From assembly GCA_003216035.1 (NCBI GenBank), contig QCJM01000001.1, positions 124,001 to 188,000 of the forward strand: a stretch of DNA of 64,000 nucleotides, given 5' to 3'. The notes beneath the pieces are model-generated. The model was not told where the DNA came from. It saw only the letters and a list, made by a program, of their open reading frames with translations, and did not search any database. Shown in pieces: positions 1,505 to 19,181 of this stretch (positions are counted from its first letter, which is position 1; the number at the start of each line of letters is the position of its first letter). Made by a program: the position numbers and the translations under genes. This stretch comes from Prochlorococcus sp. AG-409-B13. GTDB taxonomy: Bacteria > Cyanobacteriota > Cyanobacteriia > PCC-6307 > Cyanobiaceae.

Positions 1505-2551
1505 CTAAAGATAACTTTGGGAGTCAATTAAATTCATTGCTGTGATCAAATTAGAAGAGTCCAAATAATACTTCTTTATTTTATCAAAAACATTCTCAAC
1601 TTGATTATTCGTTTTCTCTGAATAGTTTCTCAATAAAGAACTGAACATAATAACGCACCATTTTATACGGTATATGTCTAATAGTATGGCAATGCGACTA
1701 ATAAATATTTGCCTATCAGGGACTAGATTCACAATTCCTCTTAAAAAATTAAAAGCACTCTGAACTTCTAATAAGTTATCAGGTTGAAGAATCCAATCTA
1801 CAGTGAACTTTGCCAGGTCATCCCAACCTGCATATTCAAAATCTAAGAACACATATTGATCATCAATTCTAAGCATATTATGTATCCCAACATCAGAAGG
1901 TGAAATAATCTTCTGACTTAAAGGAATAGTCTCACTAACTAATCTTTGAGGAGCTGAGGTTAATATATTAGCTAGCGTCTTCTCTATACTCGGTCTAAGG
2001 TTCATGGATATCCACTTAGAAATTTCATGTTCAACTGGAACATTTTCTATAAGGTCCTCCAAGTCAGATAGCCTAGAAAAAACCAGATTGAAGTGGCTTT
2101 GAATTGAAAAGCAAGCCTCTGATGCGTTCGGCAAAGAGTGAGCTCTAGGATCTTTAGCTACGAATATTAATTTTTCAAGAAAATAAAGTACAGATGCAAA
2201 TAAATCATCTGTTGCAGTCTTAATAAGTTCTCCTTCTACATAATCAAATAAAGCTATCTTACTTTGAAAATTCCAACTAATTGGTCTAGAAATATTTCTA
2301 ATATCTTTTTTTCTAAGAAAATTTAATACCTGAATTTCTGTGCCAATCCTATCTCTAATGTCATAGCTTATATCTGGATATTTCTTTAACACATATCGTC
2401 TACTTGATGACTTTACAAGATAAACAATGCTGTTTCTACCGCCTTTGAGCATAAACAGTTCCGCTTTCCTAAGGTCATGTGCCTCTAGGAAACCTAATAC
2501 AGAGGAAGTAGGAGTATGATTTAAATTTTTAAGGTTCTTATATCTATCCAA
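1505..2551 (-). CDS. Aminoglycoside-phosphotransferase/choline-kinase-like protein
   Basis: A 348-residue protein-kinase-fold protein. A glycine-rich loop (GGRNSIVYLV, residues 37-46) precedes the ATP-binding Lys at about 56 (VLKKY). The Brenner-type catalytic segment is at 217-226 and the metal-binding DFE is at 237-239. The canonical HGDxxxxN has become PSDVGIHN: the catalytic Asp220 and Asn225 remain but the His is replaced. It probably phosphorylates a small hydroxylated metabolite used in surface-glycan assembly (inference). The apparent start is a TTG overlapping the upstream HAD gene by 8 nt, which suggests translational coupling. No ATG lies in frame before the glycine loop. The gene is markedly AT-rich. 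Confidence 0.6.
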   Translation of the reverse strand: MDRYKNLKNLNHTPTSSVLGFLEAHDLRKAELFMLKGGRNSIVYLVKSSSRRYVLKKYPDISYDIRDRIGTEIQVLNFLRKKDIRNISRPISWNFQSKIALFDYVEGELIKTATDDLFASVLYFLEKLIFVAKDPRAHSLPNASEACFSIQSHFNLVFSRLSDLEDLIENVPVEHEISKWISMNLRPSIEKTLANILTSAPQRLVSETIPLSQKIISPSDVGIHNMLRIDDQYVFLDFEYAGWDDLAKFTVDWILQPDNLLEVQSAFNFLRGIVNLVPDRQIFISRIAILLDIYRIKWCVIMFSSLLRNYSEKTNNQVENVFDKIKKYYLDSSNLITAMNLIDSQSYL

Positions 2552-3167
2552 AATAATCTTGATTTAATAATAGGGGCAATTCTTCCCAGTTACGCATAAT
2601 CGGGCCATCATGCCAATCAGACTTGCTATTAGGTGAATAATGAATCCTGCATATATAGTCAGGAAGTAAATTGAGTATTTCAGGAAGATCATCTATAAAA
2701 TATCTACACCCTAAATCAATTACTTTTGCAACTTTCATTTCTTTTGTAGGCTCAAAGTGTACCTCATTTTGATTGAAGCACAATCCAGTTTTAGAAAAGA
2801 AGCCATTTTTCTCTAACCATCCTCTTGCAGCATTATGCAAGTCAAAACTAGGACCCTTATATGGGGTGTGAGTCTTGTGGCTAACAATCAACAATTTCAT
2901 CTCATCCTTTTGAATAGATTTAAGAGCATTAAGCATCCCAATACAGGGATTTGCTTCCAAAATCCTTAATCCATAAACTTCTCCCTGAAGTAAGGTGAAA
3001 TTATTATCTTGACTAATTGATCTTAAATAATTACGAACGCCTAACTTTGTAGGCTCAAGTTCTTTAGGAATCAAGCCCTTCTCAAGGGCAACCTTATAAA
3101 ATAAAGCATCATAACTTATGAGTGTATTATCAAAATCCAAGCCAATCTTCATTACTTTATTACTCAT
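2544..3167 (-). CDS. HAD-superfamily hydrolase
   Basis: A 207-residue HAD phosphatase. Motif I is DFDNT with the nucleophile at Asp11 and the general acid at Asp13. A Ser/His strand (LLIVSHKT) fits motif II, Lys-containing segments follow the cap, and YFIDD near residue 160 supplies the motif IV acidic pair. The N-terminus MSNKVMKIGLDFDNT leads straight into the fold and supports the ATG start. It lies 3 nt downstream of the transketolase C-subunit gene and overlaps the kinase-like gene by 8 nt, so it is part of the same transcript. It likely dephosphorylates a sugar phosphate in the glycan pathway. The substrate is unknown. Confidence 0.6.
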   Translation of the reverse strand: MSNKVMKIGLDFDNTLISYDALFYKVALEKGLIPKELEPTKLGVRNYLRSISQDNNFTLLQGEVYGLRILEANPCIGMLNALKSIQKDEMKLLIVSHKTHTPYKGPSFDLHNAARGWLEKNGFFSKTGLCFNQNEVHFEPTKEMKVAKVIDLGCRYFIDDLPEILNLLPDYICRIHYSPNSKSDWHDGPIMRNWEELPLLLNQDYFG

Positions 3168-3170
3168 AGC

Positions 3171-4100
3171 TCAACTGCCATTAATTAATTTGTCTAACTG
3201 GTTTACAAGTCCATGAGAGTCTAGATTTAATGAGTTAAGTACAAAAGATTGGTTTCCTAAATGATGAATGAATTCATCAGGTGTGCCAAGCCTTAGTAAT
3301 GAGATTTTATCCATAAGGTTATGAGTTTGTATCCATTCAAGAAGTGTACTGCCTACTCCTCCAATCAAGCTATGCTCTTCATAACTAACCCAAGTGGAAA
3401 ATCTACAAGACATTGCCTGCAAAAAAGCAGTATCTATAGGCTTAATACCGCCTAAGCTTGCTATCGCCACTGAGCAACCTTTCGTTTCTAGGAATTGGGC
3501 AGCCTTCATTGCTTCATTCAGAATTGGTCCGACTCCTAAAACTAAAAGATCTTTACCTTCACGAATTAAATTAGCTTTTCCTATACCTAATTTAGACGTA
3601 TCGGTATGGAGTATAGGTTCACCCTTTTTACCTATCCTTATATAAGTAGGAAATTTAGATTCAAATGCTTCCTGCAATTGAGCTGATAGCTCTAGGCTAT
3701 CTACAGGCGCTAAAACGTTTAAACCTGGAATTGCACGAAGAATTGCCAAGTCTTCTAAAGAGTGATGTGTAGAGCCTAATTCTGCATAGCTTAGTCCAGA
3801 TCCAGTCCCAATAATAACAACTGGAGCCTGATGATAAGCAACACCAACTCTAATTTGTTCTAAACAACGAGTCGTTGTAAATGGAGTAATTGTATAAACC
3901 ACGGGTCTCATGCCACTAAGCGCCATGCCAGCAGCCATGCTCATCATATTCGATTCTGCTATGCCGCAATTAAGAAATCTTTGAGGTGCAATCTCCTTGA
4001 ACTTATCAAACATTCTATTCCCAATATCACCAGATAAAAGAAAGATATCCTCTCTTTTCTGGGCAATTTTAGTGATTTCACTAGCAAAAGTATTACGCAT
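3171..4100 (-). CDS. Transketolase-like enzyme, C-terminal (pyrimidine-binding) subunit
   Basis: A 309-residue subunit carrying the Pyr domain (roughly 1-160) and the C-terminal transketolase domain (about 180-300) of a split ThDP enzyme. The ThDP-activating glutamate is visible as Glu49 in CGIAESN. It overlaps its partner gene by 1 nt (TAATG), the usual sign of a stoichiometric heterodimer. Housekeeping transketolase is a single chain of about 660 residues, so this pair is a dedicated pathway enzyme. Within a heptose-type cluster a plausible role is making sedoheptulose-7-P or transferring a two-carbon unit onto a sugar (inference). A branched-sugar role is the main alternative. Confidence 0.75.
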   Translation of the reverse strand: MRNTFASEITKIAQKREDIFLLSGDIGNRMFDKFKEIAPQRFLNCGIAESNMMSMAAGMALSGMRPVVYTITPFTTTRCLEQIRVGVAYHQAPVVIIGTGSGLSYAELGSTHHSLEDLAILRAIPGLNVLAPVDSLELSAQLQEAFESKFPTYIRIGKKGEPILHTDTSKLGIGKANLIREGKDLLVLGVGPILNEAMKAAQFLETKGCSVAIASLGGIKPIDTAFLQAMSCRFSTWVSYEEHSLIGGVGSTLLEWIQTHNLMDKISLLRLGTPDEFIHHLGNQSFVLNSLNLDSHGLVNQLDKLINGS

Positions 4101-4978
4101 TAATCAACCTCAAGCTCTGCCAGGGCAGCTGAAAGCTCTTCACCATTAGGAGTTCTATAGTGCCAATTATTATCATCTTCTATAAAGGTAACTCCCTTAC
4201 CTTTAATTGTATGAGCGACAATAACACTAGGTCGATCAATTTCCTTTCTAGCATTAATAAGTGCCGAAGAGATCTCGGCAAAATTATGCCCATTAATTTC
4301 TTGCGCATGCCAGCCAAATGCTCTCCACTTATCAGCTAAAGGTTCAAGTGCCATAATTTCCTTACTGCGCCCAGTCGCCTGCCATTTATTAAAATCAATA
4401 ATGGCAGTTAATGTGTAAACTCTCTGAGCTGCTGCCAACATGGCAGCCTCCCAAATACTACCTTCGTTACATTCACCATCACTTAATAAAGCGTAGGAGC
4501 GAGCTGGCAAGTTAAAAGATCTATGTGCAATCGCCATCCCCAATGCCATAGGTAAGCCATGGCCTAGTGAGCCTGTAGCAGCTTCAACCCCTGGAATATA
4601 TCCAGGCTTAGGTGGATGTTCATGAAAGACACTACCTGCTTTCCCAAACTCGTTTAATAAGTCCAGAGAAAAAAAGCCTCGTTCTGCCAGAGCTTGAAAA
4701 AGTGCTGGGGCTCCATGCCCTTTACTAAGCACAAACCTATCTCTTTCTTTACCATTAGGGTTATTAGGGTCAACTTTCAACTCATACCAATACAAATAAA
4801 TCAACAAATCAATACAAGATAAACAAGACCCTAAATGAGGTATCTTTGCTTCTGAAGAAGTTATTAAAATTCGTCTTCTAAGAAGGTTTGCAATCTTCTT
4901 TAGTGATTCAAAATTATTCTGATGATGTTCAGTCAATTTCTTACATCCTAACTGTCTAAATGTAGATGCTTCATCCAC
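4100..4978 (-). CDS. Transketolase-like enzyme, N-terminal (ThDP-diphosphate-binding) subunit
   Basis: A 292-residue PP-domain subunit. It contains HLG (48-50), SKGHG (85-89), GSLGHG (136-141) and the ThDP/Mg site SDGECNEGS (166-174), followed by IIDFN. Together with the adjacent C-subunit it makes a complete split transketolase. The longest reading frame starts at a GTG that overlaps the upstream epimerase gene by 31 nt. A TTG at 4934-4936 preceded by AGGA is an alternative that would start the protein at LTEHHQ. Donor and acceptor are unknown. Its position inside a heptose-like nucleotide-sugar operon suggests a role in precursor supply. Confidence 0.75.
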   Translation of the reverse strand: MDEASTFRQLGCKKLTEHHQNNFESLKKIANLLRRRILITSSEAKIPHLGSCLSCIDLLIYLYWYELKVDPNNPNGKERDRFVLSKGHGAPALFQALAERGFFSLDLLNEFGKAGSVFHEHPPKPGYIPGVEAATGSLGHGLPMALGMAIAHRSFNLPARSYALLSDGECNEGSIWEAAMLAAAQRVYTLTAIIDFNKWQATGRSKEIMALEPLADKWRAFGWHAQEINGHNFAEISSALINARKEIDRPSVIVAHTIKGKGVTFIEDDNNWHYRTPNGEELSAALAELEVD

Positions 4979-5892
4979 TTAACTGTATAGCAACTATCAT
5001 CATCAAGAAGGCGGTTTTCAATATATGCTTGTTGTATTTCTGAGATTGCATCAGTCACACCTCTCGTAGGAACATAACCTGTTGCCAGCAATTTACTTGA
5101 ATCCTGGCGATATGATCTTGGATCATTACTTTTTGTTCTAAGTACCTCTGAATTTGTAATACCTTTTACCTTAGTAGCAATATCTAATATTCTGAGATTC
5201 TCGAAACCAGCATTATAGCAACCAGAGGGAAGGTCAGGCTTTGATAAGAAATGTCGATAGACATTAGCCATATCCTCAATATGTATATTAGGGCGTGTTT
5301 GTTCTCCACCAAATACTGTTATCTCTCCTTTCTTGAGAGCCTGGTAAGTTAAAAGATTTACACTTACATCTAACCTCATTCGTGGAGACAATCCACAAAC
5401 AGTTGCAGGCCTTATGCAATGAACTCTCATCCTATCTGAATAGGATAAAAACACACGCTCAGCAACCATTTTAGTTTTATTATAAACAGAAATTGGCACT
5501 AAAGGTAAATCTTCAGTAACTTTAGACTCTTCCTTAATGCCATAAACACTTCCTGAGCTTGCATATATAAAGTGCTCCACTCCAGAACGAACACATCGAT
5601 CAGCCAATTGCTGACCAGCTAAAACATTAACTTCCCAGCTCAAAGTCGGATTAAGATCAACTGCTGGATCATTTGCAATATTTGCCAAATGAATAACGGC
5701 CTGCACACCATTTAATGGTATTCCATTTGTATCACGAATATCACACTTAAGATTAGTCAATTTTGAGTGTTCTGGAAGAAAGTTACCAAACCATTGAGTA
5801 TCCAAATTTATTACTTCGTGACCATCAGCTAATAATAGTGGCACTAAAATAGAGCCTTTATATCCACAGCCACCAGTAACAAGTAATTTCAT
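4948..5892 (-). CDS. NAD-dependent epimerase/dehydratase (extended SDR)
   Basis: A 314-residue extended short-chain dehydrogenase. The Rossmann motif GGCGYKG is at 7-13, the first acidic residue after strand 2 (NLDTQ) suggests NAD, the active-site serines are in ASSGSVYG near 111-118, and the catalytic pair is Tyr137/Lys141 (VYNKTK). It resembles UDP-glucose 4-epimerase-like and dTDP-sugar enzymes of surface polysaccharide clusters, but nothing visible fixes the substrate. The ATG start begins directly with the Rossmann strand. It is 15 nt after the preceding SDR gene and overlaps the transketolase N-subunit frame. Confidence 0.7.
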   Translation of the reverse strand: MKLLVTGGCGYKGSILVPLLLADGHEVINLDTQWFGNFLPEHSKLTNLKCDIRDTNGIPLNGVQAVIHLANIANDPAVDLNPTLSWEVNVLAGQQLADRCVRSGVEHFIYASSGSVYGIKEESKVTEDLPLVPISVYNKTKMVAERVFLSYSDRMRVHCIRPATVCGLSPRMRLDVSVNLLTYQALKKGEITVFGGEQTRPNIHIEDMANVYRHFLSKPDLPSGCYNAGFENLRILDIATKVKGITNSEVLRTKSNDPRSYRQDSSKLLATGYVPTRGVTDAISEIQQAYIENRLLDDDSCYTVKWMKHLHLDS

Positions 5893-5907
5893 TCTTTTCC
5901 CTTTATC

Positions 5908-6930
5908 TCATTTTTTATGTTGATACGCCCAAGGCATAGACTTAAATATTTCAAGATGCTCATCAATCCAATTCATAGTTTCTTTTAGTCCTTGATCCAA
6001 TTCAACCAGATCGGACCATCCAAAACATTTTCTAATAGCAGAGCTATCAAGCAAATAACTCTGATCTTTTCCAAGCCGATCAGGCGCAATCTCAACCAAA
6101 GAATCAAAAGTCACACCAGCCAGACTACAAATCATTTTAACCAATTCTCGAATACTGATTGCTGTTCTTGTAGAAAGGTGCCATGTAGTTCCAGGCTCAC
6201 CAGAATAAGCAATTTGCAGAGTAGCTGAGACTACATCACTGATGTGAATGAAACTACGCTCTGAATAGCCTCCTCCATGTAATTGCATTGGTTTTCCAGT
6301 AAGTGTACTCAACATTGTGCGCGGAATAATTCGATAAAGCTGCTGTCCTGGCCCATATACATTAGCTGCTCTAGTAAATACAACTGGGAAGTCATACGCC
6401 TTTTGGAAGCTCAAAAGGTGTAGATCACAAGCAGCCCTACTCACAGCATAAGGTGTACTAGGGGAAAATTGATTATTCTCTGTAATCCATTCTCCATTAG
6501 TACTGCCATAAACCTCTGGAGTCGTAAAATGTACATATTTTTGAACAAAAGCTTTTTTTCTCAACTCATCGTGAAAAGCAACTTGAGATAGCAAGTTAGT
6601 GCGATACCAATGTGTTGGATTTGCCCAACTCTCTGCGACCATACCTTGAGCAGCAAAGTTAATAATAAGGGTAGGTTTAAAAACATCAATTATTTCAATT
6701 AACCTGCTTAGATCTTTGTTCAAATCAATAACATGATGAAAAAAATTATCTTGACTGGCTAATGGGTCTCCATTCGCATAATGAGGCCATCGGTATGGTA
6801 AAAAAGCAGCCTCAGGCTCAGGCGACCTACTAACACCACACACTGGATGTCCTGCCTCTAATGCTCCAGCAACAAAATGAGAGCCGCTAAAAGAGTTACT
6901 ACCTATTACTAAAACCTTATGAGACTTCAT
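5908..6930 (-). CDS. GDP-mannose-4,6-dehydratase-like SDR with YxxxR in place of YxxxK
   Basis: A 340-residue extended SDR. The nucleotide-binding motif GSNSFSG (10-16) is followed by NFAAQG near 91-96, the TTPEVYGS active-site strand (136-143), and PYAVSRAA at 160-167. There the usual catalytic Lys is Arg165, encoded by AGG. The sugar-nucleotide half includes NVYGPGQQLYRIIPR and GGGYSERSFIHI, typical of NDP-hexose 4,6-dehydratases. It most likely forms a 4-keto-6-deoxy intermediate or epimerizes one (inference). The stop overlaps no gene, but the start overlaps the fused kinase gene by 4 nt (ATGA). Substrate uncertain. Confidence 0.7.
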   Translation of the reverse strand: MKSHKVLVIGSNSFSGSHFVAGALEAGHPVCGVSRSPEPEAAFLPYRWPHYANGDPLASQDNFFHHVIDLNKDLSRLIEIIDVFKPTLIINFAAQGMVAESWANPTHWYRTNLLSQVAFHDELRKKAFVQKYVHFTTPEVYGSTNGEWITENNQFSPSTPYAVSRAACDLHLLSFQKAYDFPVVFTRAANVYGPGQQLYRIIPRTMLSTLTGKPMQLHGGGYSERSFIHISDVVSATLQIAYSGEPGTTWHLSTRTAISIRELVKMICSLAGVTFDSLVEIAPDRLGKDQSYLLDSSAIRKCFGWSDLVELDQGLKETMNWIDEHLEIFKSMPWAYQHKK

Positions 6931-8429
6931 TGATTAAATGCATCAAGAACACTCGAACGTAATGCTCCACTTGTAATAGGGGAATTGCCCATAGTTTCCA
7001 CTGCAAGAGCCGCCATACAGCAACCAAGAGCTGCGGTAGGCATCATTGCCTGTCCAGTAGCCAGGCCAGTAGCCATAACCGCCAATAAAGAGTCTCCAGC
7101 TCCTGCGACATCTACAGGGTTCACCGATAAAGCAGGAAAAGGCTGACTGACTAATTTTCCAGAGCTATCCCGGTCATACGCAATAAAGCCCTCAGCTCCT
7201 AGTTTCATAATCAGCCTATTGCTACCTGTAGTCTCCAACAAACGCTGGCTCAACAACTCGAGTCCTGTCTCTCGATCTTGAAGGGCAACTCTCGCTTCCC
7301 GCTCATTCGGACATAAGAGCGAAAAGTTCTGAAATTTTGTCACCGCTCCAACCTGACTACTGCATTGGAGGTCCCCAAACAACAAAAGTCCATTTTGATG
7401 CGCTATGTGTTGTACTGCTTCCAAAATCCTTTCCGTAACCACCCCATAAACAAAGTCAGAAACAACAATTGCTTGTGCTTTAGGCGCAATTTTTTCGAGT
7501 TTTTCAATCAATTTGTCTTCTACCTGAGAATCAAGGCTATGGTCCTCAAATCGACTCACTCGAAATAATTTCTGATTCTCAACCACATAGCGCTTTTTAA
7601 ACGTACTAGGCCGTGAATCATCTACTAACAAACCATCTCCTATTTCTCTAAATCGAAGTTCATTTCGCACCCAATCTGCTGTCTCATCAGTGCCAACAAC
7701 AGAAAGCAAATCACATGAAGCACCTAATGCCCTTATATGTGAAGCAACAACTCCTGCTCCACCAATAAAATTGCATTTCTGTAATTCACGAACTACCACT
7801 ACAGGCGCTTCAGCACTCATTCCTACAGCTTCACAAGCGGCATATTGATCGACAATTGTGTCTCCCAAAACAATTATATTAGACAAGCTAAATGCATCCA
7901 AAGATTTCAGCAATTCGTCTCGGCCAATTCCTTGCCTGCGGCAAGCTGCCATGAATTGATTGCGTCTCTGTTCAACGAGCTCACGTTCAGAACGACTAAG
8001 TAAATCAGTGCTTGCATAATGAATATCTCCTGCATGAAACTGAACACTATTTTTTTGTTCTCTCTGAAGATCTATAGCAATATTAACTTCTTCATTATCA
8101 GAGTTCTGGAATTCCTTTCCTAATACTAATAAAGCAGGATTTAATTGCCTGATAATATCACATAATTGCTCACCTTGAAGTAAAATAATAGCATCAACTA
8201 TGCCTAAAAGAGCCAATGCTTCTGCACGCTCACCTTGAAGAAATTGAAAAAGTTGAGGTTGATCAGGGGGAGAATCACCTATCAATGCAACTACAAGATG
8301 CTCACCCTGCTCACGGGCATTTCTCAGGTAACGAATATGTCCAGGATGAATTGTATTGAAGTGTCCATAAGCCAAAACACAACCTTCTAAATGCTGAGCA
8401 TCTTTAAGCGAATAAATAGATGTTCTCAC
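6927..8429 (-). CDS. Bifunctional nucleotidyltransferase-PfkB sugar kinase (HldE-like, reversed domain order)
   Basis: A 500-residue fusion. The N-terminal cytidylyltransferase-like domain (about 15-140) has the nucleotide-binding HPGH at 28-31 within YGHFNTIHPGH. The C-terminal PfkB/ribokinase-type kinase (about 180-500) shows the sugar-binding GGAGVVA segment and the catalytic DVAGAGD, with its Asp near 446. E. coli HldE has the kinase first and the nucleotidyltransferase second, so the order here is inverted. By analogy it would phosphorylate a heptose-7-P or related sugar at C1 and later activate the sugar-1-P. The GTG start overlaps the dehydrogenase stop as GTGA, a coupled arrangement. 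Confidence 0.75.
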   Translation of the reverse strand: MRTSIYSLKDAQHLEGCVLAYGHFNTIHPGHIRYLRNAREQGEHLVVALIGDSPPDQPQLFQFLQGERAEALALLGIVDAIILLQGEQLCDIIRQLNPALLVLGKEFQNSDNEEVNIAIDLQREQKNSVQFHAGDIHYASTDLLSRSERELVEQRRNQFMAACRRQGIGRDELLKSLDAFSLSNIIVLGDTIVDQYAACEAVGMSAEAPVVVVRELQKCNFIGGAGVVASHIRALGASCDLLSVVGTDETADWVRNELRFREIGDGLLVDDSRPSTFKKRYVVENQKLFRVSRFEDHSLDSQVEDKLIEKLEKIAPKAQAIVVSDFVYGVVTERILEAVQHIAHQNGLLLFGDLQCSSQVGAVTKFQNFSLLCPNEREARVALQDRETGLELLSQRLLETTGSNRLIMKLGAEGFIAYDRDSSGKLVSQPFPALSVNPVDVAGAGDSLLAVMATGLATGQAMMPTAALGCCMAALAVETMGNSPITSGALRSSVLDAFNQ

Positions 8430-9478
8430 AAGCTGATCAAGACTCGACCTGCTGTAGATCCATCCTGCATAACCTTAATAGCATCATTAATTTGAGATAG
8501 TGGGAATCGCGCGCTAAACAATTGATTAAATTCAAATTTTCTATTCTGTAATAATCTCATGTATCGAGGAATGTCGCTCTCAGGCTTACATTCACCTCCA
8601 TGAGATCCAGTAATTACTTTACCAAAATGTAACGGTAAAGAATGAATGGATAAATCTGCACCATCTTTTGGGACACCAACCAAAATAATACGACCTGCTC
8701 CATGAGTGATTCTATATCCCAATTCAATCACTGAAGGCAAGCCTGTATTATCGATAAACACATCTAAGGCTTGCCCTGACAAGGCATCAAGAATTCCAGA
8801 TTCAGCATTTGATTGAACACTATTTATCATATGAGTAGCGCCTAAATTCTTTGCAAGTTCAAGGCGTTTGTCAAATAAATCTACAGCCACAATAGGGAAA
8901 GCAGATACCAAAGAAGCAGCCTGAATAATATTTAACCCAATACCTCCAGCTCCATACACTACAACCGATTCACCAATCTTAATTTTTGCATTATTTTCAA
9001 CAACCCCAAAGCCAGTCGTCAGGGCACATCCAAATAATGCGGCGACTTCAGGATTCATATTTGAGGGAACTTTAGTACAGCGATTCTCACTAACTACAGC
9101 ATGGGTATTAAAAGTAGTGACCCAACCAGCATTAAGTGGCTTACCTCTCCAGCGATATTGTGGAGTTGCAGCCTGAATGCCCTTACTTTTCCTCCAATGT
9201 AAAACCACCAAATCTCCTATCTTTACGTGCTCCACACCAGGACCTACATCTAGAACCAACCCACATCCCTCATGGCCCATCAGATGAGGGAGATAAGGGT
9301 CCGGTCCTTTTAAACCGGCAATTTCACCCAATTGAGAACCGCAAATTCCACTGACATGTAACTTGACCAGAACCTGACCAACCTCAAGTTGGTCAGGCAG
9401 TTCTACAGTATCAACAACCAATGGTTGGTTTAAAGCCACCAAAATGGCAGCTTGCATAGTCTTTGGTCTTTCAATCAT
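8426..9478 (-). CDS. Zinc-binding alcohol dehydrogenase family protein (MDR)
   Basis: A 350-residue medium-chain dehydrogenase. The catalytic zinc ligands are visible as Cys46 (ICGSQ), His69/Glu70 (GHEG) and a later Cys in FGCALTTG. The NAD(P) motif is VYGAGGIGLN. The four-cysteine structural zinc lobe of classical alcohol dehydrogenases is absent: the segment after GDLVVLHWR has no CxxCxxC. It probably oxidizes or reduces a hydroxyl or keto group of a sugar or polyol intermediate in the glycan pathway (inference). ATG at 9478 is used, and Met8 is a possible alternative. It overlaps the following kinase fusion by 4 nt. Confidence 0.7.
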   Translation of the reverse strand: MIERPKTMQAAILVALNQPLVVDTVELPDQLEVGQVLVKLHVSGICGSQLGEIAGLKGPDPYLPHLMGHEGCGLVLDVGPGVEHVKIGDLVVLHWRKSKGIQAATPQYRWRGKPLNAGWVTTFNTHAVVSENRCTKVPSNMNPEVAALFGCALTTGFGVVENNAKIKIGESVVVYGAGGIGLNIIQAASLVSAFPIVAVDLFDKRLELAKNLGATHMINSVQSNAESGILDALSGQALDVFIDNTGLPSVIELGYRITHGAGRIILVGVPKDGADLSIHSLPLHFGKVITGSHGGECKPESDIPRYMRLLQNRKFEFNQLFSARFPLSQINDAIKVMQDGSTAGRVLISL

Positions 9479-9481
9479 TGA

Positions 9482-10156
9482 TTAATCATCAAAATAAATA
9501 AAAGAATAATCTCCACTGTAACCAGTTTGATTAAACCACCATTGCCACTCTTTAGGTGTATTAAAAGCTTCACAAGTCACCTGCCAATAAAGTAAATTAG
9601 TTTTTTCATTTTCATTTCGATAGCTCTCAACGCATAGGTACTTATTAGACTTACCCACTCGCTCCATTTCTTTAAGAGCGTCAAAAAGGTCATAAGAAGG
9701 CAAATTATGAAGCGTCGTAATAGAAATTACAAGATCAAAATAATCATCAGCCCAAGGCAAGTTAGTCGCATTTCCTAAATATAATCTTTCACGTATTTCT
9801 TCCTTTGAATTTGAAATTGCATAATTAGAAATATCTATACCATATATCTCAGCATCAGGAATAACTTTCAAAAAATCATAGAGCAAGTACCCCTTTCCAC
9901 ATCCGATATCAAGTATCTTAGGCTTATCCGGAAGCATGTAATGATTTGCAATTGCCCTCGCAACCTTTTCCCAGCGACCTTCTATATATTTATAACCACC
10001 ATAACAAATTCTTCTATCGCCATCCCAATAGTCAAAATCAAATTGCTTAGCAAGCTCTGCAGCTCTAGCTTTTGGAAATTCTGAATCATTCACGCGTGCC
10101 AGATAATCACGCTTAGTGCTCTTGTGTAATGCACTCATAAAGTCAATCTCAATCAT
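9482..10156 (-). CDS. Class I SAM-dependent methyltransferase
   Basis: A 224-residue methyltransferase. Motif I is ILDIGCGKG (about 75-83), the acidic motif II region is AEIYGIDIS, and motif IV is DYFDLVISITTLHNL. The C-terminal third (WQVTCEAFNTPKEWQWWF) is rich in aromatic residues and may form the acceptor pocket. A likely role is O-methylation of a sugar in the surface glycan (inference). Methyltransferases tailoring small molecules have this size. It overlaps the SIS isomerase frame by 4 nt and sits 3 nt before the dehydrogenase gene, so it is clearly within the operon. Confidence 0.7.
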   Translation of the reverse strand: MIEIDFMSALHKSTKRDYLARVNDSEFPKARAAELAKQFDFDYWDGDRRICYGGYKYIEGRWEKVARAIANHYMLPDKPKILDIGCGKGYLLYDFLKVIPDAEIYGIDISNYAISNSKEEIRERLYLGNATNLPWADDYFDLVISITTLHNLPSYDLFDALKEMERVGKSNKYLCVESYRNENEKTNLLYWQVTCEAFNTPKEWQWWFNQTGYSGDYSFIYFDD

Positions 10157-10770
10157 TGTTCCAATTCCGTGAGTTTTGAAGGCTTATTTAAATTCAGCCA
10201 TTGCATGCACAAATGACCAACTATCAATTGTGTATCTTCAGCAATCTGCATATCATCAACAGCAAAATGAATAGGTACATCGGCAAGCTCAAGGCATTTG
10301 CCACCTGAAAAAGCAAGGATGGCATAACTACGTATTTTTCTAGCCCTGGCAATGCTTAATGCTCTGACTACATTCAAAGAGTTACCACTTCCTGAAAGAA
10401 CTATAAGAAGATCACCTTCACGAGCTTTAACTACTAATTGATGAGCAAAAATATTTTCATAGCCAGTATCATTAGCCAAGCAAGTAATTATTCCTGAATT
10501 AGCTGGTAATGCCTCCACTCTTAATCCAGCTATTTTGGGCGCGGGACCACAAGCCCCAATTCCATAATGGAAATCATTAGCTAGATGGATTGCATTTGCA
10601 GCACTTCCTCCATTCCCGCAAATAAAAACTTGCTTATCATTAAGCCAAGCATTTCTAAGATCTAAAGCAAGTAATTCAATAGCCTCCAATATTTCTTGCT
10701 TAAAGCAAGTATCAAGGCAGTTTAAATAAGATCTTGCCTTTAAAACAAAGGTGGAGTGTTTGCTTATCAT
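10153..10770 (-). CDS. SIS-domain phosphosugar isomerase, GmhA-like
   Basis: A single SIS domain of about 205 residues related to sedoheptulose-7-phosphate isomerase. The phosphate loop CGNGGSAANA is followed by HLANDFHYG, and later LSGSGNS and the AEDTQLIVGH helix are present. In E. coli GmhA the position after HFAE is the catalytic Glu. Here the helix reads ND, so Glu appears replaced by Asp. The longest frame begins at a TTG. The ATG at 10768-10770 (MISKHSTF) is preferred. It belongs with the HddC-like and GmhB-like genes as a heptose-type sugar-activation set, with the exact sugar unknown. Confidence 0.75.
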   Translation of the reverse strand: MISKHSTFVLKARSYLNCLDTCFKQEILEAIELLALDLRNAWLNDKQVFICGNGGSAANAIHLANDFHYGIGACGPAPKIAGLRVEALPANSGIITCLANDTGYENIFAHQLVVKAREGDLLIVLSGSGNSLNVVRALSIARARKIRSYAILAFSGGKCLELADVPIHFAVDDMQIAEDTQLIVGHLCMQWLNLNKPSKLTELEQ

Positions 10771-10782
10771 AAATCTATACAA

Positions 10783-11502
10783 CTAATTGTCATAAGATAT
10801 TATCTGTTGCGCTTTCACTAGACTTTGAGGAGTCCCAATGTCAATAAAGAAATCATTGGTATGCCATGACTGAATGCGTCCCATCAGCTTTGGAATTACA
10901 TGCGTACTGAAGTCAATCACATGTGGATCCAACGTTTGCAGCCAATCAAGGAAAGGAGCATCAAATAAATAAATCGCTCCATTAGCCTTGTTTGTAGGTG
11001 GTTTTTGAACCTTCTCGTAAAAAGAAGTCACAACACCATTAGGATCAGTTTCTACAATGCCGCAACTGCTAGGAGTGGAAGTCGTGAAAGTAAGCATAGT
11101 TAGCAAACAATTAGTTGGCCGATTCTGATGAGCATCGATCAAACCTGACAAATCTGCAGTTGTAACATTATCAGCATGAATCAATATGCCAGTGGCATCA
11201 GTGAAATATTCCCGATTAGTTAACAGAGTGGCAGCAGTGCCTAGCAAAACCGACTCATGAACTATATCCAATCTTAGTTGCCTACCCTTCCAACTTTTTG
11301 CAAAGACCTGAACCTGTTCAGCAAGATAGTGAGTATTTACTAAAGCAGCTCGACAACCAAGTAATTCCAATTGATCCAACCAACGAGCCAAAAGAGGCTC
11401 TCCATTAATTGGGACAAGACATTTAGGAGTATTTTCAGTAAGAGGGCGTAGTCGTGTACCAAAACCAGCGGCTAAAAGAAGAGCTCTCAAAGGTTTAGTC
11501 AT
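10783..11502 (-). CDS. Sugar-1-phosphate nucleotidyltransferase (HddC/RfbA-like)
   Basis: A 239-residue nucleotidyltransferase. The signature LAAGFGTRLRPLTENTPKCL at the N-terminus binds the nucleotide and sugar phosphate, HADN (about 128-131) supplies the metal-binding Asp, and EKVQKP and FFIDIGTP complete the substrate pocket. It is close to the short GDP-mannose-pyrophosphorylase-like enzymes such as HddC that make GDP-heptose. It could equally use another nucleotide or sugar. It overlaps the FAD-oxidase stop by 4 nt and is followed 12 nt later by the SIS isomerase. Confidence 0.75.
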   Translation of the reverse strand: MTKPLRALLLAAGFGTRLRPLTENTPKCLVPINGEPLLARWLDQLELLGCRAALVNTHYLAEQVQVFAKSWKGRQLRLDIVHESVLLGTAATLLTNREYFTDATGILIHADNVTTADLSGLIDAHQNRPTNCLLTMLTFTTSTPSSCGIVETDPNGVVTSFYEKVQKPPTNKANGAIYLFDAPFLDWLQTLDPHVIDFSTHVIPKLMGRIQSWHTNDFFIDIGTPQSLVKAQQIISYDN

Positions 11503-12728
11503 AGGTCATTTAGCCTCAAATCTATTTTTTCAATAATCAAATCAGCCAAAGCAAAACTTGCTGTAAAAGCTGGAGAAATAGCGTTCAAGACATGAGTACT
11601 ACTTGGGCCAGGCAAGCAGAGAAAATCATCTTCCAGGCTCTGTGTGTTGTGGTTGAACAACTGGGAGCGAATACCTACCTTCTTACTTAATTCAATATGA
11701 TCAATCCTTACATTAGGAATTAATTCCTGCGCAGCCCTCAAGAGAAATGGTTGCATAACCATTAATGATTGCTCGTTTACATAGCGACGGAATCCACCTC
11801 GGTTTAGCAAATACTGCCTAGCAAGCAAAGTCAAATTCGCTGCAGTCAAGACGGGCTCAAATTTTTGAAAGCCTCGATAATTTTCTCTCCCTAAGGCAGG
11901 AGTAGCAGTTGGACCAATACTTACTACCGGTCTCGAATCAGCGCTGGGAGTGAAATGAATACCAAGAAAAGGCATATTCAAATCAGGAACGGGATATAAA
12001 TTAGCTACTGGCTTCAAATCACATTCTCTCTTGAGATCCCAATAAAGACCTTTAAAAGGAATCAAACTATAGTTCCTACCAACATCAAAACAATGTGCTA
12101 CTCGATCCGCCTGAAGTCCAGCACAATTAATCAAATGTCCATAGCTCAAATAGTCACCTTCTGAGAAATATAGTTTTCTTTTATCAGAGTCAAAGTTTAA
12201 GCAATTTCTTTCTTTCAATATTTTAATACCTTTGAGCTCAAGCTCTTCCTGCAGCCTTCGAATAATAGTGATCGGTTTAACAACAGATGTAGAAGGGACC
12301 CATATTGCTCTTCCTGAACTAGTTCTAGCCTGTGGAATAAGTTCCTTTAATTGCTGCTCATCCCAAAGTTCAACCTCTACAGAATTACTTTTTGCACGAT
12401 TTAGTAGAAGATCCAATTGAGAATCTAGTTCAATCTTTTGGGGGACAATCACCTTCCCACAAGCATTAATTGGAAGCCCACGTTCCTCTACCCATTCTCT
12501 TAAACGTCTAGCACCTTCAACAGAAACCTTAGCTTTTAAGGAACCAGGTTTGTAATAAAGACCAGAATGTAAAACTCCACTATTCCTACCAGAGCTATGC
12601 AGGCCTAGCGCAAATTCTTTATCAAGGACTGCAATATTTGATGTAATCCCTTTGACTTGAAGTTGGTTAGCCACACAAAGGCCAACTATTCCACCACCTA
12701 CGATTAAAACGTCGTAGGTCTTTCTCAT
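11499..12728 (-). CDS. FAD-dependent oxidoreductase, L-2-hydroxyglutarate oxidase (LhgO)-like
   Basis: A 409-residue DAO-family flavoprotein. The FAD dinucleotide motif VGGGIVGL is at about 9-16, with the GRNSGVLHSGLYY segment following. It also has FKGLYWDL and the C-terminal GPSSTHVLNA loop typical of LhgO/YgaF. The family oxidizes L-2-hydroxyglutarate or related 2-hydroxyacids with quinone or oxygen as acceptor. Its place in a glycan operon is unexpected, and it may oxidize a sugar-derived hydroxyacid instead (inference). The ATG start is 4 residues before the Rossmann strand. It lies between the HAD phosphatase and the nucleotidyltransferase gene. Confidence 0.75.
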   Translation of the reverse strand: MRKTYDVLIVGGGIVGLCVANQLQVKGITSNIAVLDKEFALGLHSSGRNSGVLHSGLYYKPGSLKAKVSVEGARRLREWVEERGLPINACGKVIVPQKIELDSQLDLLLNRAKSNSVEVELWDEQQLKELIPQARTSSGRAIWVPSTSVVKPITIIRRLQEELELKGIKILKERNCLNFDSDKRKLYFSEGDYLSYGHLINCAGLQADRVAHCFDVGRNYSLIPFKGLYWDLKRECDLKPVANLYPVPDLNMPFLGIHFTPSADSRPVVSIGPTATPALGRENYRGFQKFEPVLTAANLTLLARQYLLNRGGFRRYVNEQSLMVMQPFLLRAAQELIPNVRIDHIELSKKVGIRSQLFNHNTQSLEDDFLCLPGPSSTHVLNAISPAFTASFALADLIIEKIDLRLNDL

Positions 12729-12747
12729 AAGCCTCTACCTTAATTAG

Positions 12748-13440
12748 TTATTTCATTTTAGTTAGGAGCGCTAAAGGTAACTCTTCTAATGAGGGTATCA
12801 GCAATATTCTAGGTTCATAAGCTTCACCAATAAAACAAGAACTGCAATTAATTCGTTTCTCTATAGAGGCACGCTCCTTTATTCCATGACCATTAAGCAC
12901 ATGCACTAAATTTTCCAAGCCAGCCCTCGCGCCAGCAATCAAATCTGTTAAACGGTCACCTATCAAAAGGGAGCGACTAAGATCAAGGTTTAAATCCTTA
13001 GCAGCTGAAAACAGCATTGCAGGACTTGGCTTCCGCCAACTATGATCCAATGCACCCGGACCATAACTATTGGCATAAATAGCAGAGATTGGTGATGGAT
13101 TACCAATCTGATCAAGCAGATAATTAGTTACTGCATCATAATCATCCCACTGAAAGTAACCTCTTGATATCCCTGATTGGTTTGTAATAATAACTATTGG
13201 TATTTTTAAAGTCAGAGCCTTTCTAAGTATAGGCCGAATTCCCTTACATAATCTCACCTGTTCAGGTTTAGAAATATAATTTACATCTTCAATGATAACT
13301 CCATCTCGATCCAAGAAAATGGCAGGCCTACACGCAAGGCCTGGTTGAATCAGCAGTCGTCTTCTCTCATGGAAATTACCCACAACCCCTAATTCAGCTA
13401 GCTTAAGAAAGTCCTCATATTCTATTTTAATCGAATTCAA
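12748..13440 (-). CDS. HAD-IIIA phosphatase, GmhB-like, lacking the zinc-loop cysteines
   Basis: A 230-residue histidinol/heptose-bisphosphatase-type HAD enzyme. Motif I is FLDRDGVI, motif II is IITNQSGI, the motif III Lys is in SWRKPSPAM, and motif IV is LIGDRLTD. E. coli GmhB holds zinc with Cys/His ligands in the loop before the RKP segment. Here that loop reads ANSYGPGALDHSW, so the cysteines are missing. About 40 residues precede motif I, starting at a TTG with no convincing ribosome-binding site, so the true start may be further in. It is the first gene of the minus-strand glycan operon and probably dephosphorylates a sugar bisphosphate. Confidence 0.7.
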   Translation of the reverse strand: MNSIKIEYEDFLKLAELGVVGNFHERRRLLIQPGLACRPAIFLDRDGVIIEDVNYISKPEQVRLCKGIRPILRKALTLKIPIVIITNQSGISRGYFQWDDYDAVTNYLLDQIGNPSPISAIYANSYGPGALDHSWRKPSPAMLFSAAKDLNLDLSRSLLIGDRLTDLIAGARAGLENLVHVLNGHGIKERASIEKRINCSSCFIGEAYEPRILLIPSLEELPLALLTKMK

Positions 13441-15347: not shown

Positions 15348-16503
<1,156 letters not shown>

Positions 16504-16953
16504 ATGCAAACTTCTGAATGCAGCATATGTACACTTCATAAAAGACAAAAAGCACGAGAAAAGTGGGAGATTTTTCGCAACGATTTATGGTTACTAAGGC
16601 ATCATCCCGACCCTGCTCCAATTGCGGGTTGGCTTCTCCTAGATTCAAGAAGGCATCTAGGGGGGCCAGTCGACTTCAACGAAAGTGAGGCATCATCCTG
16701 GGGATTAATCGTTCAGCAAGCATCAGAATTAACACGAAAAATTACTAACTGTGATCGTATTTATGCCATAGCTTTTGGTGAAGGAGCGCAACATCTCCAT
16801 TTGCATCTCATCCCTCGATTTGCGACAGATTATTCTACTGAGGCATGGGCAGTAGCTGACCATTATCGCTCAGTCATTCATGGCGAAACAAAAGCAGTAA
16901 ATTCCTACAAGGTTACCGCTCTTGTAGAAGAAGCTCGTACCCTCTGGAAATGA
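16504..16953 (+). CDS. HIT-family (histidine triad) protein
   Basis: A 149-residue HIT-domain protein. The histidine triad HLHLHLIPR lies near residues 98-106 and the fold begins with a CSICxLH metal-binding-like segment. HIT proteins hydrolyse or transfer nucleoside monophosphates from phosphoramidates, dinucleoside polyphosphates or nucleotide sugars. The gene overlaps the next glycosyltransferase gene by 4 nt (ATGA), and kdsB follows, so it is co-transcribed with envelope genes. A role in nucleotide-sugar or nucleotide clean-up is possible (inference). The ATG at 16504 gives the usual HIT length. Confidence 0.8.
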   Translation: MQTSECSICTLHKRQKAREKWEIFRNDLWLLRHHPDPAPIAGWLLLDSRRHLGGPVDFNESEASSWGLIVQQASELTRKITNCDRIYAIAFGEGAQHLHLHLIPRFATDYSTEAWAVADHYRSVIHGETKAVNSYKVTALVEEARTLWK

Positions 16954-17648
16954 CAAAACCAATCTCAATTTTCATAGGCGTAGATCCGCGAGAGCGAGCA
17001 GCAACAAATGTGCTAATCGACAGCCTCTATCAACACAGCAACACTCCTCTTGCAATTACACCACTAGTCACACCTCAACTAGAGAAACAAGGGCTGTATT
17101 GGCGTGCAAAGGACCCCAAACAAAGTACAGCCTTCTCTTTTACTCGTTTCTTAGTGCCTCACCTAATGAATTACCAAGGCTGGGCAATTTTCATGGATTG
17201 CGACATGCTCTGCCGTGGAAGTATCTCAGAGCTATGGGATCAACAGGATGAGAGCTTCTCATTGATGTGTGTTAAACACCAACATATTCCTGAAGAAATG
17301 GTCAAATTCCAAGGAGAAGTTCAAAGCGCCTATCCCAAAAAAAACTGGAGTTCTTTAATGCTCTTGAATTGCAATAAATGCTCTGCCCTCACTCCAGAAT
17401 TTGTTAATACTGCCAGTGGCCTGGAACTCCACCGCTTCCATTGGCTCTCAGGAGACCATGAAATTGGCGCCTTAGCCGACAGTTGGAATCATCTTGTAGG
17501 AGTTCAAAAGCCTGAAAAAGGTCGAGAAGCTTCTATGTTGCACTGGACTCTGGGAGGGCCATGGTTTCATGATCAACGAACCATGGGAGCAGTGCTTGCT
17601 GCCGAATGGTTCGCAGCCCGCGACGAAGCATTCAAGCTATGGGATTAA
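16950..17648 (+). CDS. GT8-like glycosyltransferase
   Basis: A 232-residue protein beginning IFIGVDPRE, with a DxD metal/nucleotide-sugar motif in MDCDMLCRG (about 85-93) and a WLSGDHEIG segment near residue 170. These features fit GT-A-fold, GT8-like transferases. It overlaps the HIT gene by 4 nt and is followed by kdsB after 18 nt, so it probably works in lipopolysaccharide or capsule assembly along with Kdo. Donor and acceptor are unknown. Family assignment is moderate because only the DxD region is strongly diagnostic. Confidence 0.6.
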   Translation: MTKPISIFIGVDPRERAATNVLIDSLYQHSNTPLAITPLVTPQLEKQGLYWRAKDPKQSTAFSFTRFLVPHLMNYQGWAIFMDCDMLCRGSISELWDQQDESFSLMCVKHQHIPEEMVKFQGEVQSAYPKKNWSSLMLLNCNKCSALTPEFVNTASGLELHRFHWLSGDHEIGALADSWNHLVGVQKPEKGREASMLHWTLGGPWFHDQRTMGAVLAAEWFAARDEAFKLWD

Positions 17649-17666
17649 GCAAGAAAAACTAGTCCT

Positions 17667-18488
17667 ATGAAGACCCCTATCAGAACTATCGTTGCCATTC
17701 CTGCTCGACTCAAGTCAAGCAGATTGCCTAACAAAGTGCTCGCAAAAATAGGTGGCAAGCCAATGTTGCAACATGTTCTCGAAAGATGTTCCCTTGCCAC
17801 CAAACCAATAGCTGTGGCGTTATGTACAGATGACGAAAATCTTATTGCCCTAGCAAATAGCTTAGGGTTTCCGGCTCTTATCACTAGTCCAGAATGTCAA
17901 TCAGGCAGCGAAAGAATTGCGTCAATCACCAAGCAACTGTTAAAACTTCACGCTGATCCAAATAAGACTATTGATGCAGAGGATTTAGATTCAGAGCTCA
18001 AGCGATATCTCATAATTAATGTACAAGGAGATCAACCATTTATAGATCCCCATATCATAGATACAATGGCAAAAGAATTCTCTAATAGAAATCCAACGCC
18101 AGATGTCCTTACTCCTGTTTACAAACTAGGTGCAAACAAAATACACAATCCAAATATTGTCAAGACATTACTTGCAAATGATGGACACGCTATTTATTTC
18201 TCCAGGTCAGCCCTGCCATATGTGAGGGGTGTAGCTCCAGAAAACTGGCATGAGCACTCTGATTTCTGGGGGCATGTAGGTATTTATGGATACCGTGCCG
18301 ATATATTAAGCAAATGGTCAACTTTACCTTATTCACCATTGGAGCATAAAGAAAAGCTGGAACAACTTCGACTTATAGAAGCTGGCATCAAGATAGGCAC
18401 ATTCAAGGTAGAAGGTGAATCCTTATCAGTAGATACAGCGGAGCAATTAGAGCAAGCAAGAGAGATTGCTAAGCAAATTCAATCTTAA
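17667..18488 (+). CDS. kdsB: 3-deoxy-manno-octulosonate cytidylyltransferase (CMP-Kdo synthetase)
   Basis: A 273-residue nucleotidyltransferase that activates Kdo with CTP to CMP-Kdo. The N-terminal signature IPARLKSSRLPNKVL binds CTP, and NVQGDQPF, YFSRSALPYVR, GIYGYR and the C-terminal SVDTAEQLEQAR match KdsB. It is slightly longer than the E. coli enzyme (248), mainly through an insertion around residues 93-110. The ATG at 17667 is the only sensible start. It is the last gene of the HIT-GT-kdsB run and converges on kdsC. Confidence 0.92.
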   Translation: MKTPIRTIVAIPARLKSSRLPNKVLAKIGGKPMLQHVLERCSLATKPIAVALCTDDENLIALANSLGFPALITSPECQSGSERIASITKQLLKLHADPNKTIDAEDLDSELKRYLIINVQGDQPFIDPHIIDTMAKEFSNRNPTPDVLTPVYKLGANKIHNPNIVKTLLANDGHAIYFSRSALPYVRGVAPENWHEHSDFWGHVGIYGYRADILSKWSTLPYSPLEHKEKLEQLRLIEAGIKIGTFKVEGESLSVDTAEQLEQAREIAKQIQS

Positions 18489-18583
18489 ATTTAGCTTATT
18501 CAAAAGGCTTCTTTTTAAAGAGCAGTGAGAATAATATTTAATTAATCAACTTAGATGAAAGGCTAAATCAGGAAGCAAGTAGT

Positions 18584-19165
18584 TTAAACATTTTGATCTC
18601 TCCATCCATAACTAGCTAGCCTTAACCATGTGCCTCTTGATTGAAGTAATTGTTCAGCAAGTTCTCTTACTGCGCCATTCCCACCTGAGTGTTTTAAAAC
18701 AATATCCGAATTAAGTCTTAAAGCATCTGTGGCATCTGCCGTTGCAATCAAAATAGAAACTTGCCCTTTTAAAGCCAAGTCATTTAAATCATCCCCAACA
18801 AAGAGCATTTTTTGAGGTGAAGTAGAAAGCTCATTACACAGCCTTGCCAAGGCTAAAGGTTTATCCTTCTCACCAGTGAGGCAATATTTAATGCCCAAAT
18901 CCTTAGCACGAGCTTCCGTTGCCCCTCCTCTTCCACCACTAAGAAAAACAACCTCAACACCCTCTTTTTGCATAAGGCGGATACCCAGCCCATCTCTAAC
19001 ATCAAAACGTTTAGTTAATTCACCGTTAGCCCCATAAAAAAGACCTCCATCAGTCAAAACACCATCAACATCAAGGATAACGACATTAATCAGGGCAAGT
19101 TTCTTACGAAATCTCCACCAAGCAAATGCACCTTTTAAAGCAAGCCTAAGGCTTTTAAAGCTCAT
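18584..19165 (-). CDS. kdsC: 3-deoxy-D-manno-octulosonate 8-phosphate phosphatase
   Basis: A HAD phosphatase of about 193 residues of the KdsC type. The nucleophile motif is LDVDGVLTDG, and FDVRDGLGIRLMQ, FLSGGRGG, FVGDDLNDL and a C-terminal RELAEQLL helix follow. It converts Kdo-8-P to Kdo and normally forms a tetramer. The longest frame starts at a TTG immediately before an ATG, and the ATG at 19163-19165 is chosen. It lies 16 nt after kdsD, so the two form an operon. Confidence 0.92.
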   Translation of the reverse strand: MSFKSLRLALKGAFAWWRFRKKLALINVVILDVDGVLTDGGLFYGANGELTKRFDVRDGLGIRLMQKEGVEVVFLSGGRGGATEARAKDLGIKYCLTGEKDKPLALARLCNELSTSPQKMLFVGDDLNDLALKGQVSILIATADATDALRLNSDIVLKHSGGNGAVRELAEQLLQSRGTWLRLASYGWRDQNV

Positions 19166-19181
19166 CAAAACTATCTATCCT

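Follow-up and report, generated by a model that had tools for sequence, protein, structure and literature searches.

A split transketolase in a Prochlorococcus surface-sugar operon looks like a candidate for two-carbon branch grafting

Enzymes that use thiamine diphosphate (ThDP) to attach two-carbon branches to keto sugars include YerE, known from lipopolysaccharide (LPS), the aKADH2 pairs and the split transketolases (PMC12247030, PMC4753412). The aKADH2 pairs are of the E1 type and place acetyl branches on keto sugars in antibiotics; for hydroxyacetyl branching, 13 putative split transketolases have been proposed, all from Streptomycetes and none tested (PMC12247030). Campylobacter Cj1427 oxidises C4 of GDP-heptose, and alpha-ketoglutarate takes the electrons and becomes L-2-hydroxyglutarate (L-2-HG) (PMC10680097). 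Here we analyse a 13-gene operon of Prochlorococcus sp. AG-409-B13 that includes a split transketolase, encoded by tktN and tktC. It lies within positions 124,001 to 188,000 of contig QCJM01000001.1, a stretch of 64,000 nucleotides that we call the window and in whose coordinates positions are given. On balance, this operon probably serves a surface glycan by making an O-methylated, nucleotide-activated sugar with a C2 branch, and a heptose is the most likely starting point. For its transketolase, attachment of the two-carbon branch seems a better fit than provision of the starting sugar; we favour the branching role because related strains have a different two-carbon-transfer enzyme in the same slot.

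Like the GDP-D-glycero-D-manno-heptose/Cj1427 system of the Campylobacter jejuni capsule, the operon brings GmhA-, GmhB- and HddC-like enzymes and a Cj1427-like SDR protein together in one set, and it would share the alpha-ketoglutarate/L-2-HG redox logic. It differs in that a PfkB kinase fused to a cytidylyltransferase-like domain stands where C. jejuni uses the GHMP kinase HddA, in its altered GmhA and GmhB sites, and in its extra ThDP enzyme, zinc-dependent alcohol dehydrogenase (ZnADH) and LhgO homologue. With the ADP-heptose pathway (GmhA, HldE, GmhB) it shares an HldA-like kinase and a nucleotidylyltransferase domain on one chain, but the domain order is reversed, a second nucleotidylyltransferase is present and scores fall below the equivalog cut-offs. 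As in the aKADH2 systems (AviB1/AviB2, Pau11/Pau12), a two-subunit ThDP enzyme sits beside keto-sugar genes, and E1-type sister loci of the operon belong to the same superfamily; the aKADH2 genes lie in antibiotic clusters, however, whereas this is a cyanobacterial surface-sugar operon, with the transketolase type in the window. The miharamycin and amipurimycin clusters, which we liken to it by description only, also have a split transketolase proposed to put a hydroxyacetyl group on a keto sugar. YerE, which acts in the yersiniose pathway of O-antigens, is likewise responsible for a two-carbon branch on C4 of a nucleotide sugar that ends up in a surface polysaccharide, but it belongs to the decarboxylase superfamily, and the operon was not found to contain a gene of that kind. 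By analogy with these systems, the operon would appear to work like a branched-sugar pathway.

The operon runs on the minus strand from 13440 down to 1505, with neighbouring genes overlapping or separated by at most 31 bases; families were assigned with Pfam and NCBIfam, and Table 1 lists the genes in operon order. A preliminary description of this DNA had claimed a heptose-type gene set and a split transketolase in one tight operon, and all of the genes it named are indeed present on that strand between 13440 and 3171. The operon continues past 3171, with a HAD phosphatase gene ending at 2544 and an APH-like kinase gene ending at 1505, and it includes an LhgO homologue (11499-12728) that played no part in the earlier argument. 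A promoter and terminator scan returned fewer sites than shuffled sequence did. The search for the same set elsewhere that had been suggested found it, in the same order and at 55-80% identity, in about 30 genomes of Prochlorococcus and Synechococcus, the genera to which the window's relatives belong. Among 400 genomes of the same family, the cytidylyltransferase-PfkB fusion is present in 33, most of which retain around it the order HAD phosphatase, LhgO homologue, nucleotidylyltransferase, SIS isomerase, methyltransferase, ZnADH, fusion, SDR1 and SDR2. Because the fusion occurs in 33 of 400 genomes with mostly the same neighbours and order, this arrangement is far beyond chance. No plasmid record carried the fusion, and matches to TktN in a phage search all stayed below 60% identity and fell mostly in records that were unannotated or bore the label of a bacterial genome. 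In a few loci (L009:7735-8583, L058 and L066) the ZnADH position is taken by a gene without a Pfam match, probably encoding a 2-oxoglutarate-dependent oxygenase. The operon also occurs, at 43-81% identity, on a contig labelled as a Rhodopirellula metagenome-assembled genome (L009:3822-12385), which appears to be picocyanobacterial and binned in error.

The position of the transketolase is tied to that of SDR2, the Cj1427-like SDR. TktN orthologues occur in 16 of the 400 genomes, and all 16 are SDR2-positive (p 4e-21, nominal, as are all such values here, since the compared genomes share ancestry); tktN directly follows the SDR2 gene in 11 of 15 other loci. Three genomes (G244, G305 and G362) have the transketolase genes ~10-24 kb away from the core, together with those for the methyltransferase and ZnADH. 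An E1 alpha/beta pair takes the place of the transketolase in nine further SDR2-positive genomes; it lies directly after SDR2 in seven of the nine, and in two it forms a single chain of 686-688 residues. The SDR2-positive genomes G010 and G201 have a divergent split transketolase, and G318, a contig stub, was excluded from this tally of ThDP types. On the SDR2 tree, transketolase and E1 types are intermixed, with 12 changes where 2 would be the minimum; well-supported branches force at least four changes for the transketolase and at least three for the E1 type. The E1-type sister loci have the context described for aKADH2, an E1 pair without a nearby E2 and separate from the housekeeping pyruvate dehydrogenase (PDH), and no lipoyl E2 was recognised among the neighbours listed for L006 and L010. 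We know of no E1 chemistry that gives sedoheptulose-7-phosphate (S7P), and the slot therefore seems to require two-carbon transfer rather than a heptose precursor.

Two further genes follow the ThDP type. The HAD phosphatase of the kind encoded at 2544-3167 is found in 15 of 15 transketolase-type loci and the APH-like kinase in 11 of 15, against 0 of 9 E1-type loci for each. This phosphatase has no family match; its predicted structure is a nucleotidase-like HAD fold (predicted local distance difference test score, pLDDT, 91), nearest to 3bwv and to 5′(3′)-deoxyribonucleotidases. Elsewhere, both ThDP types occur within one cluster (L062:12664-16469), where a fused E1 alpha-beta protein of 688 residues is followed by a different split transketolase. 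At L048:8573-14239, an E1 pair near the fusion, with no SDR2, adjoins a different YxxxK SDR and a radical-SAM-like gene.

The genome from which the window comes also encodes a full-length housekeeping transketolase and a second split transketolase, the latter at L003:1315-3129 in a different gene neighbourhood. A check of 13 genomes found one full-length housekeeping transketolase in 12 of them, all but G041, a 74%-complete assembly; the 12 genomes examined for housekeeping PDH E1 alpha had one each. Because these enzymes are found separately, the operon-type transketolases and E1 pairs are extra paralogues. TktN and TktC retain the ThDP-site residues H26, H66, H100, GDG (here SDG) and E411 (E. 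coli numbering), as well as the equivalents of R318 and H258 of human transketolase. In every slot-type homologue aligned, TktC has Arg for S385, Gly for H461, Leu for D469 and Lys for R520. In the E. coli enzyme, D469 faces the acceptor pocket, and mutants at this position can use new acceptors; S385 contacts phosphate (PMC5073344). The active split transketolase ChTK (PMC7661550) retains His and Asp at the H461 and D469 positions in our alignment. Leu at D469 marks a wider group than this operon, because it also occupies this position in further split transketolases that these genomes encode (L003, L062).

The best support that sequence offers for a heptose is that the closest solved relative of SDR2 is Cj1427, a GDP-heptose 4-dehydrogenase: the match to 6vo6 is 7e-34 against 9e-20 for the runner-up, and a profile search gives 2.4e-45 against 1.8e-30 for the next structure. 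SDR2 also carries the SPRMRLD and YxxxK motifs of the Cj1427 type. The LhgO homologue scores 289.4 bits on the L-2-hydroxyglutarate oxidase model NF008726 (cut-off 299) and is present in 13 of 14 good SDR2-positive genomes, two of these 13 having distant homologues only, against 14 of 237 good SDR2-negative genomes. The natural reading of this co-occurrence is that L-2-HG formed by SDR2 could be recycled by the LhgO homologue. It also lends indirect support to SDR2 being of the Cj1427 type, in which tightly bound NADH would be reoxidised by alpha-ketoglutarate. LhgO homologues also lie near WbpB-like GFO/IDH dehydrogenase genes in clusters lacking SDR2 (L075, L076, L077, L079 and L083). We had considered this as clean extra support and demoted it to weak, the Pseudomonas WbpB product being of the other stereochemistry, D-2-hydroxyglutarate (PMC8651671). 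The remaining dehydrogenase, SDR1, resembles 4,6-dehydratases but has Arg for the YxxxK lysine in 21 of 29 sequences, which makes the 6-deoxy step suggested in the preliminary description no more than a possibility. Both SDRs fall below the cut-off of the ADP-heptose 6-epimerase model.

The heptose-activation chain claimed earlier stands in part: the families fit, and the Cj1427-like SDR and LhgO homologue strengthen it, but the GmhA-, HldE-, GmhB- and HddC-like proteins miss each heptose-specific NCBIfam model by a wide margin, and the metal site of the isomerase is altered. The isomerase, whose closest solved relative is GmhA, scores 96.6 bits on TIGR00441 (cut-off 209). The GmhA zinc ligands H64, E68, Q175 and H183 are described as 'completely conserved' and needed (PMC5705639). 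Here E68 is replaced by Asp (D70) and Q175 by Glu (E182) in 23 of 23 relatives aligned, GmhA D61 is Asn in the window protein (N63), and the two histidines are kept as H66 and H190, the second in 21 of the 23. The fusion scores 188.6 bits on the HldE/HldA model TIGR02198 (cut-off 345) and has the opposite domain order to HldE, with the cytidylyltransferase-like domain first and the PfkB kinase second; the kinase domain is closest to HldA among solved structures (4e84, 5e-19), and both HxGH histidines and the GAGD motif are retained in 31 of 31 sequences. The HAD phosphatase encoded first in the operon exceeds the cut-off of TIGR01656 (100.5 bits) and reaches 97 bits on TIGR00213 (cut-off 149.6); its HAD motifs are intact, the GmhB zinc-loop cysteines are absent in 6 of 6, and its top PDB matches are 2o2x, an uncharacterised HAD protein, and then GmhB (2gmw). 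The nucleotidylyltransferase scores 56 bits on the HddC model NF049965 (cut-off 300), with 7d72 (3e-20) as its top PDB match and HddC at 9e-14 (6jq8). Clusters L082 and L088, from the same family, combine a GHMP HddA-like kinase with an LhgO homologue, one of them also with a Cj1427-like SDR. Because model cut-offs are missed, GmhA residues are changed, the zinc cysteines are absent and two genomes with the fusion lack a SIS relative, heptose is a guess and not a result; it is the best single guess for the base sugar, reached by a plausible but non-canonical chain.

The genes, their conservation and paralogy, the residue changes, the slot sharing and the co-occurrence are direct observations. 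We infer from them the chemistry, the step order and the heptose identity of the following scheme. The SIS isomerase would form an aldose phosphate, the PfkB kinase would phosphorylate its C1, the HAD phosphatase would take off the distal phosphate, and a nucleotidylyltransferase would activate the sugar. SDR2 would oxidise C4 with alpha-ketoglutarate as the terminal acceptor, and the LhgO homologue would reoxidise the resulting L-2-HG. The split transketolase would transfer a hydroxyacetyl unit from a ketose donor onto the C4 ketone, leaving a tertiary alcohol; in sister strains, the E1 alpha/beta enzyme would transfer acetyl from pyruvate instead. ZnADH may reduce the branch ketone or, alternatively, make a ketone, and the methyltransferase would cap a hydroxyl. 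A more specific version, which we put forward tentatively, is that marine picocyanobacteria diversify a single surface sugar by swapping entire ThDP carboligase modules, which place hydroxyacetyl (split transketolase) or acetyl (E1 type) on a 4-keto nucleoside diphosphate-heptose, the product being a C-branched nonose.

Several points weigh against this scheme. Ketone branching by split transketolases has been proposed in the literature and not shown in vitro (PMC12247030). The nearly complete genomes G305 and G201 have the fusion without a SIS relative, no extra ThDP enzyme was found in SDR2-positive G218 (70% complete), and in G121 an E1 pair occurs although SDR2 is absent. SDR1 appears to have no clear place in the scheme, which also leaves the HAD phosphatase and APH-like kinase of the transketolase type unexplained.

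The preliminary description had placed the transketolase at the start of the route, as the enzyme that provides the GmhA-like isomerase with S7P; on this view, which can be extended to related ketose phosphates, the operon would be a self-sufficient heptose pathway. Transketolase forms S7P in the Calvin and pentose-phosphate pathways, its genes share an operon with that of the isomerase, and the R318 and H258 equivalents are in place. Set against this are the housekeeping copy elsewhere in nearly every genome checked, the location after SDR2 rather than the isomerase, the loss of H461 and D469, and the repeated replacement by an E1 pair. Moreover, other genomes have the isomerase and fusion without any orthologue of the operon transketolase, and conversely G305 lacks a relative of the isomerase although it has the transketolase. 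We regard a supply role as quite improbable and do not maintain that claim.

The separation of transketolase, methyltransferase and ZnADH from the core in three genomes could also mean that the ThDP enzyme builds or extends a second sugar of the same glycan, unrelated to the one activated by the core. The two nucleotidylyltransferase domains in the operon would be enough for two sugars, and the HAD phosphatase and APH-like kinase could act on a separate phosphorylated intermediate. The invariable co-occurrence with SDR2 and direct adjacency in most genomes favour a shared substrate, however, and we consider this explanation unlikely. Compatible with ThDP branching, and a possibility that we take seriously without preferring it, is that the core sugar is not a heptose, the SIS isomerase, kinase and HAD phosphatase acting on another sugar phosphate before C4 oxidation and branching. 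The universal change of the E68 and Q175 ligands and the sub-threshold scores on all heptose equivalogs are consistent with this, as is the description of cyanobacterial LPS as heptose-free (PMC4515613). On the other hand, the SIS protein, PfkB domain and SDR2 are all closest to solved heptose enzymes, the relatives of the HAD phosphatase include GmhB, and the same family has clusters with an HddA-like kinase and LhgO.

If a C2-branched sugar is indeed made here, this would become the first case in which a transketolase is shown to use a ketone acceptor for a cell-surface polysaccharide. The picocyanobacterial loci would provide naturally occurring ketone-accepting transketolases that can be tested outside Streptomyces, the genus in which the reaction, though proposed, has yet to be demonstrated in vitro. 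Strain-level variation in surface sugars would then arise, among the most abundant phototrophs, through exchange of carbon-carbon-bond-forming enzymes, with possible consequences for phage recognition. It would also give a reason for an L-2-hydroxyglutarate-oxidase homologue to be in a glycan operon.

Table 1. Genes of the operon, with window coordinates and the basis of each assignment.
Gene product	Position	Strand	Basis
GmhB/HisB-N-like HAD phosphatase, first gene of the operon	12748..13440	-	TIGR01656, TIGR00213, PDB matches
FAD oxidase, L-2-hydroxyglutarate oxidase (LhgO) family	11499..12728	-	NF008726
Sugar-1-phosphate nucleotidylyltransferase (GDP-mannose pyrophosphorylase/HddC-like)	10783..11502	-	families, PDB matches
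GmhA-like SIS-domain isomerase, altered metal site (H66, D70, E182, H190; N63)	10153..10782	-	family and alignment
S-adenosylmethionine (SAM)-dependent methyltransferase	9482..10156	-	family; co-located with ThDP genes in L084-L086
Zinc-dependent (MDR) alcohol dehydrogenase (ZnADH)	8426..9478	-	family; co-located with ThDP genes
Fusion of N-terminal cytidylyltransferase-like domain and C-terminal HldA-like PfkB kinase	6927..8429	-	families, PDB match
SDR1, dTDP-glucose 4,6-dehydratase-like	5908..6930	-	TPE motif; Arg for YxxxK lysine
SDR2, Cj1427-like (GDP-heptose 4-dehydrogenase-like) SDR	4948..5892	-	SPRMRLD motif; 6vo6 match
TktN, ThDP-binding half of split transketolase	4100..4978	-	family and alignment
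TktC, pyrimidine-binding and C-terminal half of split transketolase	3171..4100	-	family and alignment
HAD phosphatase, nucleotidase-like fold, transketolase-type loci only	2544..3167	-	predicted structure
APH-like kinase, transketolase-type loci only	1505..2551	-	family

Beside the operon, at 15348-20180 of the window, lies a series of genes that appear to encode a whole pathway for 3-deoxy-D-manno-octulosonic acid (KDO), with putative kdsA, kdsB, kdsC and kdsD families. The LPS of marine Synechococcus is described as KDO-free (PMC4515613). At the end of the island, similar proteins of ~440 residues are encoded at 71-1393 of the window and at L073:12623-13951, the window copy having no Pfam match.

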